This document shows positions 50,802-56,287 of a stretch of DNA of 56,287 nucleotides, one piece after another (the first letter of the stretch is position 1; every line of letters starts with the position of its first letter). The position numbers and the translations under genes are program-made. The DNA is taken from positions 1 through 56,287 of the forward strand of contig JAOULC010000021.1 of NCBI GenBank assembly GCA_029882215.1, in the 5' to 3' direction. The stretch is from Gammaproteobacteria bacterium. Its GTDB lineage: Bacteria > Pseudomonadota > Gammaproteobacteria > SZUA-229. Under the pieces are notes generated by a model that was not told where the DNA came from, did not search any database, and saw nothing but the letters and a program-made list of their open reading frames with translations.

Positions 50802-52952
50802 ATGACAGCTACGCATCTACACGCTGTGAAGGGTGGAACAGAAGAAGTACCGTTTCAGGATACATCTCTGGATATCTGGGATAAAAAATACCGCTTAAAG
50901 ACCAAAGAAGGCGAGGCCGTTGACGGCAACTTGCAAGACACTTACGAGCGTGTTGCAAAAGCCCTGGCAGAGGTTGAAGAAACGCCTGCATTACAAAAAA
51001 AATGGCATAAAAAATTCCTTTGGGCACTGCAGCACGGTGCAATTCCAGCCGGGCGTATTATCTCCAATGCCGGCGCGCAGGAACACAAACCTGCGACTTC
51101 AACCATTAACTGTACCGTATCCGGCATCATTGCTGATTCAATGGACGATATACTGAAAAAAGTATACGAGTCCGGTTTAACGCTAAAAGCGGGTTGCGGT
51201 ATCGGTTATGAGTTTTCAACCCTGCGCCCTAAAGGCGGTTACGTTTCAGGTGCCGGTGCTTATACTTCTGGCCCGATGTCATTCATGGATATCTACGACA
51301 AAATGTGTTTTACCGTGTCGTCAGCCGGTGGCCGTCGTGGCGCACAAATGGCCACTTTTGATGTGGGCCATCCGGACGTGTTTGATTTCATCAAAGCCAA
51401 GCGTGAAGACGGCCGTTTGCGCCAGTTTAATTTATCACTATTAATCACCACGGCCTTTGTTGAAGCAGTAAAAGCCGATACCGACTGGAAGCTGGCGTTC
51501 CCCGTCAGTGGCAAAGAACAGGAAGACGGTGAGTTTGATGCTAATGCCGACGACATCATCTGGCGCGAGTGGCCACAAAAAGAAGGTTACATCGTTAATG
51601 ATGATGGCCTGGTGGCTTGTCGCGTAACGCGCACCGTGCCGGCCCGTCGTTTGTGGGATTCCATTATGGCATCCACTTATGATTACGCTGAGCCGGGTTT
51701 TATTCTGATCGACAAAGTTAACGAGCTGAACAATAACTGGTTCTGCGAAAACATCCGCGCTACCAACCCGTGTGGCGAGCAGCCATTACCCCCTTACGGC
51801 TCATGCCTGCTGGGTTCTGTTAATTTAACGCGTTTTATCAACAAACCCTTTACCGCAGAAGCCTCGTTTGACTGGGATGGATATCGCGAAACAGTCGCTA
51901 TCTTTACCCGTATGCTCGATAACGTCGTCGAAATCAATGGTCTGCCACTGCCACAGCAGCAGCAAGAGATTATGAACAAACGTCGTCACGGCATGGGTTA
52001 TTTAGGTCTGGGTTCAACCCTTACCATGATGGGGCTTAAATACGGCTCAGCAGAATCATTAAGCTTCACCGAAGAAGTCACCCGCGAATTAGCCATGACA
52101 GGCTGGCGCACGTCGTTAGAGTTAGCCAAAGAAAAAGGCCCGGCACCTATTTTAACGCAGGACTTCAGCGTCACTCAGGAAATGCTCTACAAGCGTCCTG
52201 AAATGAAAAAAGACGGCTATAAAGTCGGCGACATCGTCAAAGGCAGTGTGTTACACGCCAAATACAGTCGCTACATGCAAAAAGTGGCAGAAGTTGATCC
52301 AGAGCTGGCGGCTGAACTGGCAGAAGTGGGCGCACGTTTCACCCACCACAGCTCAATCGCACCAACCGGTACCATCTCCTTGTCACTGGCCAACAATGCC
52401 AGCAACGGCATCGAGCCAAGTTTTGCACACCACTATGCCCGTAACGTTATTCGTGAAGGCAAAAAGAGCAAAGAGAAAGTAGATGTTTTCTCCTACGAAT
52501 TGCTGGCTTACCGTTCAATGATCAATCAGCAAGCCATGCCGTACAGTGAAGACCCGGCCACACAGTTACCGGAATACTTCATCACCGCAGAAGACATCAC
52601 GCCGAAACAGCACGTGGATATTCAGGCCGCTTCGCAGAAATGGATCGACTCATCGATCTCAAAAACAGCGAATGTACCGACTGACTACCCGTTCGAAGAT
52701 TTCAAAAATATCTACGAATACGCCTACGACATGGATCTGAAAGGCTGCACCACTTTCCGCTTCAATCCGGAAGTGTTCCAGGGTGTACTGGTTAAAGACA
52801 GCGACCTTGAAAACACTATGTACCAGTTCACACTGGAAAATGGTGAAGTGATTGAAGTGAAGGGTAATGAAGAGATCGAGTACGACGGTGAGATGCATTC
52901 GGCGGCCAACCTCTTCGATGCTTTAAAAGAAGGCTACTACGGCAAATTCTGA
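50802..52952 (+). CDS. nrdJa: Class II (adenosylcobalamin-dependent) ribonucleotide reductase, catalytic part
   Basis: This enzyme reduces ribonucleotides to deoxyribonucleotides with coenzyme B12 and works with or without oxygen. The 716-residue protein has a strong ribosome site (AAGGGGGAAGG). It shows STINCTVSGII with the first redox cysteine, the KAGCGIGYEFS region, and the active site NPCGEQP with Asn322, Cys324 and Glu326. The SSIAPTGTISL motif comes later. The C-terminus lacks the shuttle cysteines of one-piece NrdJ. These appear to be in the separate nrdJb product downstream, as in the split Pseudomonas enzyme. Two NrdR-like boxes precede the gene. No cobalamin riboswitch was recognised. 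Confidence 0.93.
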   Translation: MTATHLHAVKGGTEEVPFQDTSLDIWDKKYRLKTKEGEAVDGNLQDTYERVAKALAEVEETPALQKKWHKKFLWALQHGAIPAGRIISNAGAQEHKPATSTINCTVSGIIADSMDDILKKVYESGLTLKAGCGIGYEFSTLRPKGGYVSGAGAYTSGPMSFMDIYDKMCFTVSSAGGRRGAQMATFDVGHPDVFDFIKAKREDGRLRQFNLSLLITTAFVEAVKADTDWKLAFPVSGKEQEDGEFDANADDIIWREWPQKEGYIVNDDGLVACRVTRTVPARRLWDSIMASTYDYAEPGFILIDKVNELNNNWFCENIRATNPCGEQPLPPYGSCLLGSVNLTRFINKPFTAEASFDWDGYRETVAIFTRMLDNVVEINGLPLPQQQQEIMNKRRHGMGYLGLGSTLTMMGLKYGSAESLSFTEEVTRELAMTGWRTSLELAKEKGPAPILTQDFSVTQEMLYKRPEMKKDGYKVGDIVKGSVLHAKYSRYMQKVAEVDPELAAELAEVGARFTHHSSIAPTGTISLSLANNASNGIEPSFAHHYARNVIREGKKSKEKVDVFSYELLAYRSMINQQAMPYSEDPATQLPEYFITAEDITPKQHVDIQAASQKWIDSSISKTANVPTDYPFEDFKNIYEYAYDMDLKGCTTFRFNPEVFQGVLVKDSDLENTMYQFTLENGEVIEVKGNEEIEYDGEMHSAANLFDALKEGYYGKF

Positions 52953-53197: not shown

Positions 53198-53893
53198 ATG
53201 GCTACTAAAATCAATTCAAAAATTGTCAGTTTTAAAGTAGTAAAAGAAGAAGAGCCTGCAGCGGTTGTTGCAAAGGTTGAAGATGCAGCGAATGCAGTGG
53301 TGCACATGCACGAAGATGTTGAACGTCCTGAGTTACTGCTGGGTTCAACCTACAAGGTGAAAACACCGCTGTCGGAACATGCACTGTACATCACCATTAA
53401 TGACATTGTTTTAAATCACGGCACCGACCACGAGCTGCGCCGTCCGTTTGAAATTTTCATCAACTCAAAATCAATGGATAACTTCCAGTGGGTAGTCGCA
53501 CTCACCCGTGTTATCTCAGCCGTGTTCCGTAAAGGCGGCGACAGCTGCTTTCTGGTGGAAGAACTCAAAGCCGTGTTCGATCCAAAAGGCGGTTACTTCA
53601 AAAAAGGCGGCAAGTACATGCCATCACTGGTCGCAGAAATCGGTGATGCCATCGAGTCACACATGAAAATGATCGGCATGATCAAAGAAGAAGGCCTCGA
53701 CGAACACCAGCAAAAATTAGTCGACGCAAAACGCGCCGAGTACGATGCCCAGCAAAACAGAGCCAGCGACAAAGAAGAAGCCGGTGAGTTTCCACCGGGT
53801 GCACAGCTTTGTGCCAAGTGTTCGACTCAGGCTGTGGTGATGATGGACGGGTGTATGACGTGTCTTTCTTGTGGCGACTCAAAATGCGGGTGA
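53198..53893 (+). CDS. nrdJb: Class II ribonucleotide reductase C-terminal subunit (NrdJb-like)
   Basis: The open frame begins with TTG at 53174, but the ATG at 53198 has AAGGA nine bases upstream and gives 231 residues, close to the Pseudomonas NrdJb. The central part (GSTYKVKTPLSEHALYITIN, RRPFEIFINSK, ALTRVISAVFRKGG) is a TSCPD-type domain. The C-terminus has a cysteine-rich ribbon with CAKCSTQ and CMTCLSCGDSKCG, which should hold the redox cysteines that re-reduce the active site. It works with the product of nrdJa 245 bases upstream. The gap contains a long hairpin. Confidence 0.9.
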   Translation: MATKINSKIVSFKVVKEEEPAAVVAKVEDAANAVVHMHEDVERPELLLGSTYKVKTPLSEHALYITINDIVLNHGTDHELRRPFEIFINSKSMDNFQWVVALTRVISAVFRKGGDSCFLVEELKAVFDPKGGYFKKGGKYMPSLVAEIGDAIESHMKMIGMIKEEGLDEHQQKLVDAKRAEYDAQQNRASDKEEAGEFPPGAQLCAKCSTQAVVMMDGCMTCLSCGDSKCG

Positions 53894-53906
53894 TTTGCGG
53901 CGCCTG

Positions 53907-54131
53907 AAACGAGATAGCGTTGTTGCGGCGCAATTTTAAAATACTCACGTACTAGTTGTACGCTCCGTTTTTAAAATAGCACCGCGCCTGGCTCTATCGT
54001 TTAATGCTTGCAACTCACAAAATAGCGGCGCTCTGACACCGGATACAGCGTTGCAGCACTAATTGAAAATGCTCACGTACTGCGTGTACGCTGCGCTTTT
54101 CAATTAGCACCGCGCCTTGTCTGCGGAGCCA
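53907..54131. repeat. Two copies of a stem-loop intergenic repeat
   Basis: Copy 1 (about 53907-54002) and copy 2 (about 54031-54131) each contain a core CTCACGTAC-N5-GTACGCT flanked by inverted arms (AATTTTAAAA/TTTTAAAAT in copy 1, AATTGAAAA/TTTTCAATT in copy 2) and CGGCGC/GCACCGCGCC-type edges. The compensating changes in the arms keep pairing in both copies. They lie between nrdJb and the cassette array. Confidence 0.75.
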
Positions 54132-54246
54132 GTGCTTGCTCATTTGGATGAGCTGGCGATTAAAGAATAAGAGTAAAAATAATAAAAAATTGAAAAGGAA
54201 TTTCCCAGTCTCATTGTAAATTCCTGAATAACAAAAAAAGGAAAAT

Positions 54247-54345
54247 ATGAATCAAAATGTCTTCATATTACGTGTAATGCGGGATATACCCCATAATGTC
54301 GTAATTAAACACCCCGTTTTGGGGTCTACTCACTGTTATGTGTAA
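54247..54345 (+). CDS. Possible 32-residue leader or cassette-fragment peptide
   Basis: The frame starts at an ATG preceded by AAGGA at short spacing (four bases) and ends with TAA at 54343, just inside cassette 1. The product has no recognised motif. Part of the frame overlaps the hairpin ACCCCGTTTTGGGGT at 54311-54325. It may be chance. Confidence 0.2.
   Translation: MNQNVFILRVMRDIPHNVVIKHPVLGSTHCYV
54335..54341 (+). other. Cassette junction (R' core) at the left end of cassette 1
   Basis: GTTATGT is the crossover core, with cassette 1 beginning at the T after the G (54336). It is exactly complementary to the R'' box ACATAAC of the attC of the same cassette (54760-54766), as integron chemistry predicts. 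The preceding CTACTCACT resembles the right half of an attC, but a full-length attC or attI site is not evident upstream. Confidence 0.7.
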
Positions 54346-54351
54346 AAACAA

Positions 54352-54765
54352 ATGAACGGAATTCAATACAAATTTCATTTCCCATGGCGTATTCATGCGG
54401 CAATAGCTATTTCATTATTATGGCTGCCAGTAATATTCTCAGACAAAGCATTAACAATTGAAATATTCTTATTTGTATCTGTAGTTATAGCTATGCCTAT
54501 TCTTACCATCTGGCAAGTAAGTGTTATGTCTATTAACTCAAAAGGCATTAAGTTATATCGGGTAAATAAATTAGTCTGGTCTGATATAACCGAAGCCAAA
54601 CTAACAAGTTTTGTTGGCTTACCGTACATACTTATAAAAAGAAAAAAAGGCATGAAATGGTGGTTACCCTTGTACTTTAAAGGTAACCTAACTGTTAAAG
54701 ATGCTTTAATAAATAATGCACCAAAAGAAAACCCAATATATGAAGCAGCAACTAAAAACACATAA
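54352..54765 (+). CDS. Cassette 1 gene: small membrane protein of unknown function
   Basis: The 137-residue product has two membrane helices (about 12-30 and 35-55) and a C-terminal cytoplasmic part with a beta pattern (VSVMSINSKGIKLYRVNKLV, WSDITEAKL, PYILIKRKK) that could be a bacterial PH-like domain. The stop codon lies inside the R'' box of its attC, as is usual for cassette genes. The start is 16 bases from the cassette's left edge, leaving little room for a promoter. Composition is far more AT-rich than nrdJ. I do not recognise a function. Confidence 0.7.
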   Translation: MNGIQYKFHFPWRIHAAIAISLLWLPVIFSDKALTIEIFLFVSVVIAMPILTIWQVSVMSINSKGIKLYRVNKLVWSDITEAKLTSFVGLPYILIKRKKGMKWWLPLYFKGNLTVKDALINNAPKENPIYEAATKNT

Positions 54766-54861
54766 CAAGTGCATTAAGAACATTCGCTTGTCGCTCATTG
54801 GGACTTTTAAAAGAGGCGCTCTCGCTTCTCTTTTAAAAGCCCCTTATGCAAAACGTTAGAT
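54760..54861 (+). other. attC recombination site 1
   Basis: The 102-base site runs from R'' ACATAAC to R' GTTAGAT. Outer arms pair GCATTAAG with CTTATGC, leaving an extruded base. The inner hairpin pairs CTTTTAAAAGAG with CTCTTTTAAAAG around GCGCTCTCGCTT. These are the hallmarks of a folded attC recognised by integron integrases. Confidence 0.85.
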
Positions 54862-54889
54862 GCCTTAAGGGAATACTGGATAATTCACA

Positions 54890-55609
54890 ATGTTATATTT
54901 TATTTTAGGTGTTTTAGTGTCATTACTGGTTATCACAATATTATCAGTAATATTTCCCTCCACAGTTCTATTTGAGTGGGTGAAGTTAAATATATCCAAC
55001 ATTCAAGCAGCTGGATCTTTAGCTATAGCTAGTAGTGCTGTTGTTGCTTTCTTTCTTTATAGAGCGACAATAAAAAGACACAAAAAAGAAGACGCTGATA
55101 AATCTTCTGAATATTTCTTGAAGGAAGGAAAAGAGTTACTCGAAAAAACATATCAATTATTTACAGATGATGGCGAAAACAAATCACCACCTCGTAATGA
55201 CAGATTGCTGTGGCTTACTACAGCAAGAATGATTATTAGATATCAAAATCTAAAATCAAAAATTACAGCAAATGCACATTTAGAAATAATTGAAGAGCAT
55301 GAAGAGTACTGGAGATTTCACTTCTATAAATTACTAGATGAAAACAGTGCCAATTTCTCCATAAGGTATTTTCAACCCTCTGGTGATAGATACAATGGTT
55401 TTAATGTGGCAAGAAACTCTATAGCAATAATATTCGATTTTGCTAAATGGAATGGCCCTGACCCACTTGAAGGTGTTGATGATAAAAGACTGTTTGCTAA
55501 AAAGGTCGTATCAATAGACCAACATGGAATCGAACATTATCTTGAGCAGTATGAAGGATATTGGGCTGACGTTATGGAAATAAGAAGAAATGAATACAAC
55601 GACATCTAA
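54890..55609 (+). CDS. Cassette 2 gene: two-helix membrane protein of unknown function
   Basis: The 239-residue product has two N-terminal membrane helices (about 2-24 and 38-57) and a charged cytoplasmic part of about 180 residues, mostly helical, with YFLKEGKELLEKTYQLF, LLWLTTARMIIRYQNL and FDFAKWNGPDPLEG. I do not recognise a family. The stop codon lies in the R'' box ATCTAAC of its attC, and that box is complementary to the GTTAGAT at the cassette's left edge, so this is an intact cassette (54856-55661). Confidence 0.75.
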   Translation: MLYFILGVLVSLLVITILSVIFPSTVLFEWVKLNISNIQAAGSLAIASSAVVAFFLYRATIKRHKKEDADKSSEYFLKEGKELLEKTYQLFTDDGENKSPPRNDRLLWLTTARMIIRYQNLKSKITANAHLEIIEEHEEYWRFHFYKLLDENSANFSIRYFQPSGDRYNGFNVARNSIAIIFDFAKWNGPDPLEGVDDKRLFAKKVVSIDQHGIEHYLEQYEGYWADVMEIRRNEYNDI

Positions 55610-55667
55610 CAATACGCTCAAGCAGGGACGCGAAAAAACATCGCGCCCCTTAGCTCAACCGTTAGAG
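55604..55667 (+). other. attC recombination site 2
   Basis: The 64-base site from R'' ATCTAAC to R' GTTAGAG has the classical short layout: GCTCAAGC and TTAGCTCAACC around a GGGACGCGA / TCGCGCCCC stem. Layout and length recall the aadA-type attC. The last R' base is G rather than a pyrimidine. Confidence 0.88.
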
Positions 55668-55682
55668 CCATAAGAGAAGAAT

Positions 55683-56144
55683 ATGAATTACCAAGAAATG
55701 GACGAACAAAATCAAGCCATAGCAAACCAAGAAATTAATGCTAGGCTGAGTGGGCTTAAAGATATTCTAAGAGGCCTTGCAGTTTCTATTTCAAAATACC
55801 TTATAGCAGCAAACTCAGGTGGTATTTTAGCTATTCTTGCATATTTAAACTCATTAAAGAATGTTGACCCAACGAGTTCTATAAAAGTATCACTTGTTTT
55901 TTTTGTTATAGGTCTAGTTTTAATTTCTGTTGTTCTTTTTTGGGTGTGCTGGAGAGTCTGGAAGATTGACAGTCAATATAAAAAAGATATGTCAGTTTTT
56001 TATAATAACCAAATATCTTTTTTTGAACTTAGACGTAGAGATAATGAAAGAACGGAAAGTGATAAAGTTGAATATTTCTTAGGGGCTTTATCATTCATAT
56101 CATTTATGGTTGCTGTAATATCAGGAGCAATAAATTTTGTTTAG
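55683..56144 (+). CDS. Cassette 3 gene: three-helix membrane protein of unknown function
   Basis: The 153-residue product has an N-terminal polar helix, membrane helices at about 38-57, 68-92 and 132-152, and a charged loop (FFELRRRDNERTESDKVEY). No family is recognised. It starts 21 bases after the cassette edge. No attC follows. Instead an IS3-type end begins 16 bases after the stop, so the cassette is probably interrupted. Confidence 0.7.
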   Translation: MNYQEMDEQNQAIANQEINARLSGLKDILRGLAVSISKYLIAANSGGILAILAYLNSLKNVDPTSSIKVSLVFFVIGLVLISVVLFWVCWRVWKIDSQYKKDMSVFYNNQISFFELRRRDNERTESDKVEYFLGALSFISFMVAVISGAINFV

Positions 56145-56160
56145 ATTAAAGGGGTCAGAG

Positions 56161-56287
56161 TGAACCTCCCCCAGTTTAACGGATACTTTTAATCAGAGAC
56201 AAAAGTCTCTAATGGAGTGTCCCAATGAGCAGTAAACGTAAGCCCTATAATACTTATACAAAAGAGTTTAAGCTAGAAGCCCTTCGC
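56161..56287 (+). mobile_element. Left end of an IS3-family insertion sequence (cut by window edge)
   Basis: The sequence from 56161 begins TGAACCTCCCCCAGTTTAAC, a typical terminal inverted repeat of IS3-family elements. It is followed 64 bases later by an orfA start. Only the left end is in the window, so the right end and target duplication cannot be seen. Confidence 0.8.
56225..56287 (+). CDS. IS3-family transposase OrfA (partial, N-terminus only)
   Basis: Twenty-one codons are visible from ATG at 56225. The translation MSSKRKPYNTYTKEFKLEA matches the start of the helix-turn-helix OrfA of IS3/IS911-like elements. The frame runs off the window end. OrfB should follow by programmed frameshift. 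Confidence 0.85.
   Translation, partial: MSSKRKPYNTYTKEFKLEALR

Follow-up and report, generated by a model that had tools for sequence, protein, structure and literature searches.

A probable attI-type cassette platform without a local integrase gene behind nrdJb in a gammaproteobacterial draft genome

The window analysed here, the entire contig JAOULC010000021.1 (56,287 bases; C45 in our numbering) of a draft gammaproteobacterial genome, ends on its right in a short array of integron gene cassettes that starts behind nrdJb, a gene for one part of a split ribonucleotide reductase. Judged by its sequence, the left edge of this array is likely an attI-type site, and no gene for an integron integrase (IntI, gene intI) was found on the contig. 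We consider it reasonably probable that the place is an integrase-less attI platform supplied with cassettes in trans; here we infer both the action in trans and the sequence of events. Since it has two attC sites and no intI nearby, the array is by definition a cluster of attC sites lacking an integrase (CALIN), as a preliminary description of the same DNA had proposed, with the right side open after the 620 bases that remain between attC 2 and the contig end. The other option named there, the detached tail of a larger integron, did not hold: as the left edge is of attI type, the array would be a head and not a middle or a detached tail, and an origin as the detached tail of the integron on contig C67, where the only intact intI found in this genome resides, was rejected because the left edge is not an attC.

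Cassettes and attC sites at the right end of the window

By the general chemistry of integrons, a circular cassette is inserted when IntI recombines its attC, folded from the bottom strand, with attI at G|TT. The attC sites were sought with a covariance model (R1) whose training set consisted of 17 attC sites from the surroundings of intI in other genomes and included nothing from the window. Two of the 39 candidates listed were the window's own; 24 of the remaining 37 were chosen by eye, and removal of seven whose 3' end was misaligned or shifted by MAFFT left the 17, in all of which the three inner R-box pairs and most L-arm pairs form. The array as delimited by R1 and by its left edge is composed as follows.

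54282..54335, plus strand: attI-type site (likely), cleavage point G54335/T54336; 53-column attI profile and gapped core matrix
54336..54855, plus strand: cassette 1 (520 bp); open reading frame (ORF) 54352-54765, 137 aa, no family match above cut-off
54760..54861, plus strand: attC 1; R1 23.9 bits, E 4.9e-05 (filters off)
54856..55661, plus strand: cassette 2 (806 bp); ORF 54890-55609, 239 aa, no family match above cut-off
55604..55667, plus strand: attC 2; R1 32.4 bits, E 1.1e-07 (filters off)
55662..56149, plus strand: cassette 3, truncated, attC missing; ORF 55683-56144, 153 aa, no family match above cut-off
56150..56287, plus strand: start of an insertion sequence (IS)-like sequence within which the contig ends, 138 bases; by inspection

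Both attC sites were thus recovered where the preliminary description had placed them, at the ends of cassettes of 520 and 806 bp, and the covariance search it had suggested scored both as attC. The third-ranked of the 13 matches listed for the 56 kb reached 12.7 bits (E 0.15). R1 E-values are rough; at whole-genome scale they become 0.003 for attC 1 and 6.9e-06 for attC 2, and the genome as a whole yields seven matches at E ≤10, two on C45, two on C10 and three on C141, the latter two contigs therefore holding further segments of arrays elsewhere in the assembly. As a control, R1 was run on 792,833 bases from 80 nrdJb loci in other genomes, where just three matches reached E ≤1, two of them being cassettes behind nrdJb themselves; the intI-adjacent regions gave many, the training sites among them. 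The bottom strands of the two sites fold better than shuffled sequences (z −4.59 and −5.01, with 0 of 200 shuffles as good for either), and the top strands reach z −3.77 (0 of 200) and −2.55 (5 of 200). Such a bias towards folding of the bottom strand is expected of attC. In addition, the 5' end of each cassette exactly complements the R'' box of its own attC (GTTATGT with ACATAAC in cassette 1, GTTAGAT with ATCTAAC in cassette 2), as had been pointed out before, and chance palindromes as a source of the attC signals were rejected on the model scores and the 7/7 complements. By eye, attC 1 carries about 21 extra bases (54779-54799) on one side between the L'' arm and the inner stem, and none of the training sites shows such an asymmetry; attC 2 has weak arms only.

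None of the cassette ORFs had a convincing match to defence families (best E 0.006), and the 153-aa product of cassette 3 is probably a membrane protein. The IS that the preliminary description saw at the contig end was called IS-like by inspection: the 21 residues of its ORF start in the contig have no Pfam match, and the one other copy in the assembly, a partial one of 85% identity on C94, showed no transposase in the two surrounding ORFs of at least 80 aa listed. The array continues rightward off the contig, past the IS-like sequence.

The likely attI-type left edge

The junction reads G54335|TTATGT with cassettes on one side of it, as at the insertion point of an attI, and it lies 442 bases behind nrdJb. 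Several intI-adjacent attI sites of the bacterial family have a core of the form GTCTAATATACTG|TT. A core matrix was built from seven such cores in an ungapped version and from eight in a version that allows one gap, leaving out attI cores of other types (ending TAG, CAAG, GCTG, GATG and ATAG). With the 1-base gap the junction ranks first of 1,964 positions, and 6 of 22,435 background positions are as good. A second instrument, a 53-column profile anchored at the cut, was built from three attI types of the genus (C97 of this genome, C9 of genome G002 and C24 of the sister genome G001), with the window left out. By this profile the junction ranks first of 1,962 G|TT positions, with 16.9 against 8.7 for the next, and none of 8,441 positions taken from 30 of the 80 background loci is as good; after removal of the 14 core columns it still ranks second of 1,962. 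Since true attI sites score 76-79 on the same profile, the window site must be much diverged. It carries the blocks GGATATAC and GTCGTAAT, the latter 38 bases from the cut as in the C97 copy. In global alignments over 70 bases, core included, 2 and 18 of 1,000 shuffles were as good.

A number of results weigh against the assignment. By the ungapped core matrix the junction ranks only 221st of 1,964; the gap was tried after this result and the ACTG-type training cores were picked partly for their likeness to the junction, so that the rank from the gapped matrix is flattered. The genus-based profile was likewise designed after the sites had been seen, and when every N|TT position was scanned, two places outscored the 16.9 of the window without being insertion points, both in repeat-rich regions upstream of attI copies (C67 with 19.6 and C86 with 17.5). 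In local alignments of the flank beyond the core with three other attI sites, 455, 291 and 747 of 2,000 shuffles were as good and 160, 101 and 85 of 2,122 window pieces reached an equal score; MAFFT did not align the window flank in register with other attI sites. A scan of 53880-54420 for sigma-70-like promoters found 0 where 1.5 were expected.

Two further features of sequence lie within or across the site.

54311..54325, no strand: inverted repeat ACCCC-GTTTT-GGGGT within the attI-type site; sequence
54247..54345, plus strand: open frame of 32 codons running through the attI-type site and ending in cassette 1; sequence

Other attI copies of the genus have inverted repeats of different sequence at the corresponding place. 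More generally, the regions upstream of the cut (L011, L121, L123 and L205) hold repeated inverted repeats whose arms vary by species and whose positions are alike, possibly binding sites of the integrase or of a repressor. The corresponding frame is open into the first cassette in 6/6 attI copies (window, L205, L243, L244, L200 and L121), for at least 18 codons upstream of the cut, and the other two frames are mostly closed in the same six. Class 1 attI holds a short ORF as well; the frame might encode a short leader peptide or be due to chance.

Integrase, relatives and further attI copies

A search of the whole genome with TIGR02249 returned one full-length integron integrase above cut-off, near the end of contig C67; the remaining matches fall under it. 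This IntI of 326 aa scores 456.2 bits (cut-off 265) over model positions 1-314 of 315, its residues 13-324 align with the solved integron integrase 2a3v (E 1.8e-87), and its catalytic residues were assigned by inspection. The window itself has no match to PF00589 or TIGR02249, the four PF00589 matches of the genome all being on other contigs, which bears out the earlier statement that no intI lies to the left of the array and extends it to the entire contig. An intI on the right was rejected as well, since the orientation of the attC sites would lead one to expect it on the left; on the right, the contig covers the 620 bases after attC 2. Accordingly, intI, attI and attC do not stand together here as in a complete integron, intI being on a separate contig. 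The search of the whole chromosome for intI and attC, which the preliminary description had recommended, thus brought the intact intI on C67 and the attC clusters on C10 and C141, and in an assembly of 144 contigs it covers the chromosome in part only. Directly behind intI we noted an ORF of 136 aa (L011 6293-6703) with a related ORF in G002 (L123, about 1228-1628); it has no Pfam or NCBIfam match, a BLAST match of 66% over 809 bases spans the ORF and part of intI, and it is possibly a companion gene of this IntI type.

The neighbourhood in front of the array consists of the following landmarks.

50802..52952, plus strand: nrdJa, large part of the split B12-dependent (class II) ribonucleotide reductase; TIGR02504 583.3 bits, above cut-off
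53198..53893, plus strand: nrdJb, C-terminal part of the split class II ribonucleotide reductase, behind which the proposed platform sits; TSCPD domain above cut-off
53894..54140, no strand: intergenic repeats with stem-loops, partly common to the sister genome (BLAST to L124); sequence

The C-terminus of NrdJb matches PRK08665 under that model's cut-off, nrdJb is 92% identical to that of the sister genome G001, and the relatives by NrdJb are Gammaproteobacteria, mostly metagenome-assembled genomes. The label 'REP-like' (repetitive extragenic palindromic) for the repeats was given by inspection; the window has no Rfam match at gathering scores and no tRNAs.

The place behind nrdJb recurs in relatives. 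This was noticed first from the two best core matches among 80 background loci, both of which lie just behind nrdJb; with 20 loci fetched from the family, 102 loci were scored in all, 97 of them distinct after removal of five duplicates. Only 5 of the 24,448 G|TT positions in the distinct loci reach at least 12 bits, and all five are on the nrdJb strand and at most 1 kb behind nrdJb, a zone that comprises 1,407 of the 24,448 positions, in five other genomes; at 11 bits, five cores lie inside the 1-kb zone and five outside. The window is absent from the five because of the 1-base gap in its core. In the following list, the complement compares the 5' end of the first cassette with the R'' box of its own attC.

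L261 (G051; the same as locus L016): attI core 758 bases behind nrdJb, nrdJb strand, 18.2 bits; no attC found
L260 (G032): attI core 147 bases behind nrdJb, nrdJb strand, 16.7 bits; attC follows, complement 6/7
L022: attI core 335 bases behind nrdJb, nrdJb strand, 16.4 bits; two attC sites follow, complement 7/7
L262 (G044): attI core 253 bases behind nrdJb, nrdJb strand, 16.4 bits; attC follows, complement 7/7
L263 (G052): attI core 893 bases behind nrdJb, nrdJb strand, 15.3 bits; attC about 2.6 kb further on

In L263, an IS91-type transposase gene and an ORF of the phage integrase family precede the attC; the ORF matches IntI at 31-39% in two pieces and was not accepted as intI, though a tyrosine recombinase is still present in this locus. 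By tblastn no IntI was found in the 80 background nrdJb loci, and among the 20 family loci only L263 and L276 (G021) gave matches. In G021, intI comes right after nrdJb (the aligned ends are 18 bases apart), and the locus also has an attI with a different type of core (CAAG|TT) and a 36.8-bit attC. This is the only case of nrdJb near intI in 83 intI-region loci, most of which span about 1.5 kb on each side, and nrdJb was therefore rejected as the usual place of intI. A single cassette sits at a TAG-type core 464 bases behind nrdJb in G028 (L271; attC 46.7 bits, complement 7/7), and in the sister genome G001 an attC of 19.0 bits follows nrdJb after about 665 bases, without any attI-like site there. 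The preliminary description had regarded the same flank without cassette boundaries in relatives as the finding that would speak against its reading. By BLAST, no counterpart of 54140-54340 turned up in any of the family's other 53 genomes, and a second match of that search (32 bases at 88% on C39) was taken as chance; G001, as stated, has an attC and lacks an attI-like site behind nrdJb. An intI above cut-off occurs elsewhere in three of the family genomes that carry a core behind nrdJb (G044, G051 and G052), the one in G051 with one in-frame stop, and G032 has an intI fragment only.

These data bear on whether the cassettes were inserted off target, at a so-called attG place that is no attI, in which case the resemblance would reflect the taste of the integrase for G|TT in a loose neighbourhood. 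Insertions of this kind have been described (PMC12444791 and PMC12901181, in the parts cited), genomes reportedly abound in attI-like sites (PMC10127599, likewise), and the similarity of the window site beyond its core fails the shuffle test. However, insertions of the attG kind are reported to be scattered across many loci (PMC12444791, in the part cited), whereas here the nrdJb place recurs in 5/5 high-scoring cores, and the window site stands well clear of the remaining G|TT positions in score and carries both blocks. We thus regard an off-target insertion as improbable.

The attI of the window's genome is also present in further copies. A pattern of the two conserved attI blocks occurs at four places in this genome (C45, C67, C97 and C119), at three in G001, at one in G002 and at none in G003 (68% complete), and the reversed pattern is absent from all four genomes. 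The attI region of C67 is copied on C97 (98% over 152 bases), the C119 copy matches that of C97 with 88% over 228 bases, and BLAST with the C97 copy revealed one more on C86 (87% over 224 bases). Leading away from the cut, the C97 copy runs into genes for a CysQ-like phosphatase and the RuBisCO large subunit and the C119 copy into an endonuclease I gene, with no IntI match within 8 kb of either. The C86 copy, near fliP, is decayed and likewise has no intI match (best E 0.22), the contig ending about 350 bases off on the intI side. R1 found no attC at E ≤2 in C86, C97, C119 and five other stretches; two degenerate attC-like stretches were seen by eye on C86. The genome therefore has five attI-type places versus one intact intI found. 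In G002, a second species, an attI of this type lies beside nirB (TIGR02374, 941 bits) without intI; the intI of that genome is on another contig, and the region upstream of it differs. In G001, one of the attI copies adjoins an intI whose N-terminal end is truncated and another adjoins a 26-residue intI remnant; on C11 of the same genome (L121 300-530), a tandem repeat of about 60 bases was seen by eye beside the first cassette.

On the side of the distal ends, one cassette of the C141 array (L198 5010-5351, minus strand) encodes a small protein with the superinfection-immunity domain PF14373 (E 2.4e-17), perhaps serving in phage exclusion. The C141 array ends at ordinary chromosomal genes and the C10 array (L197) at a REP-type transposase-like gene, both labels by inspection. 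As two right ends stand against four or five known left ends, some arrays must be short or lost.

Given a genome of 3,425,802 bases in 144 contigs (98.15% complete, 4.64% contaminated), the contig might falsely join the nrdJb region to the array that follows the attI of C67. C67, C97 and C119 indeed end at or just after the repeated attI, and draft genomes are known to inflate CALIN counts (PMC9024848, in the part cited). Yet relatives independently show attI cores behind nrdJb, the left edge lies 54 kb from the contig start, and, because the window site differs from the attI of C67, C97 and C119, there is no shared stretch to cause a false join. An assembly artefact is therefore very improbable.

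A further alternative is a relic, in which a complete integron behind nrdJb lost its intI and left attI and cassettes inert and decaying, with nothing supplied in trans. In its favour, G021 has intI exactly behind nrdJb, the window site has diverged, the arms of attC 2 are weak, cassette 3 is cut by the IS-like sequence, the C86 copy is a clear case of a decayed attI, and CALINs are usually read as degraded integrons (PMC9024848, in the part cited). Nevertheless, no trace of intI is detectable between nrdJb and the site (tblastn best E 4.2), the attI of G021 belongs to another core type, an intact IntI is present in the genome, and the five relatives keep cores of 15-18 bits out of a possible 19.8 with no adjacent intI and with differing cassettes. 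The quality of these cores and the differences among their cassettes argue for use over pure decay, and we consider the relic unlikely.

We thus favor the integrase-less platform filled in trans. An old integron locus would have existed behind nrdJb, with intI lost or never local in most lineages, and its attI would have kept working, such that an IntI encoded elsewhere in the genome could still fill it. Cassettes would enter singly, by recombination of the folded bottom strand of their attC with the double-stranded attI-type site. Since no intI is present at the locus, the recombinase would have come from elsewhere, either from a former local intI since lost or from the C67 IntI acting in trans, and we think that both apply. 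Three points tell against this reading. The window site differs from the attI of the genome's own intI on C67; in G044 and G051, too, the type of the intI-adjacent attI differs from that of the nrdJb site, which argues against a simple match of IntI to the nrdJb site; and the genomes compared are fragmented drafts.

Beyond the single locus, we tentatively put forward, as an idea still short of being probable, that this bacterial family has a distributed integron, in which one integrase gene would serve several attI platforms across the chromosome. The place behind nrdJb would then be a conserved outpost with an intI-less attI and cassettes that differ by species, and the genome of the window would have five such places: behind nrdJb, near the RuBisCO large-subunit gene, near endA, near fliP and beside intI.

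Comparison with known integron systems

CALINs are commonly regarded as debris or put down to random off-target insertion. Should many of them stand on attI sites that have gone unrecognised, one integrase would control more than one array, and an attI at the CALIN head would be a direct and testable cause of conserved CALIN places, for which the nrdJb locus provides a set of natural test sites. Tools that seek attI only beside intI would then miss such sites; IntegronFinder, according to the cited part of PMC9024848, seeks attI only for class 1 integrons. It is already known from Xanthomonas that CALINs occur apart from intI and at conserved loci, and the same study contrasts conserved CALIN places with scattered attG insertions in Escherichia coli and, in the part cited, leaves the cause open (PMC12444791). 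In a literature search that excluded most subscription journals, we found no report of attI-type heads on CALINs, several per genome and recurring behind one housekeeping gene, and no mention of nrdJ with an integron among the matches listed.

The array of the window shares with CALINs the presence of at least two attC sites without intI nearby, and CALINs often occupy conserved places in genomes with intI elsewhere, as reported for Xanthomonas (PMC12444791, in the part cited). In contrast, its left edge is likely an attI-type site, a feature absent from the CALIN definition. Like sedentary chromosomal integrons, it has a likely attI-type site, cassettes that all point the same way, attC sites with the structure expected of them and an integron-family IntI in the genome, but intI is not beside the attI-type site of the window. 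Insertions at attG sites were reportedly described by Loot et al. in 2024. As in that case, cassettes are found here in the chromosome away from intI; unlike attG, which is an insertion point that is neither attI nor attC, the insertion point of the window resembles attI and the locus recurs across genomes. Under the definition of attG as quoted in citing papers (an insertion point unlike attI or attC), the window junction falls outside this class by the 53-column profile. Finally, the delta-attI cassettes of mobile integrons, as described in the cited part of PMC12901181, also have an attI sequence away from its own intI; there, however, the attI piece ends a cassette, whereas here the likely attI-type site heads an array beside chromosomal genes.

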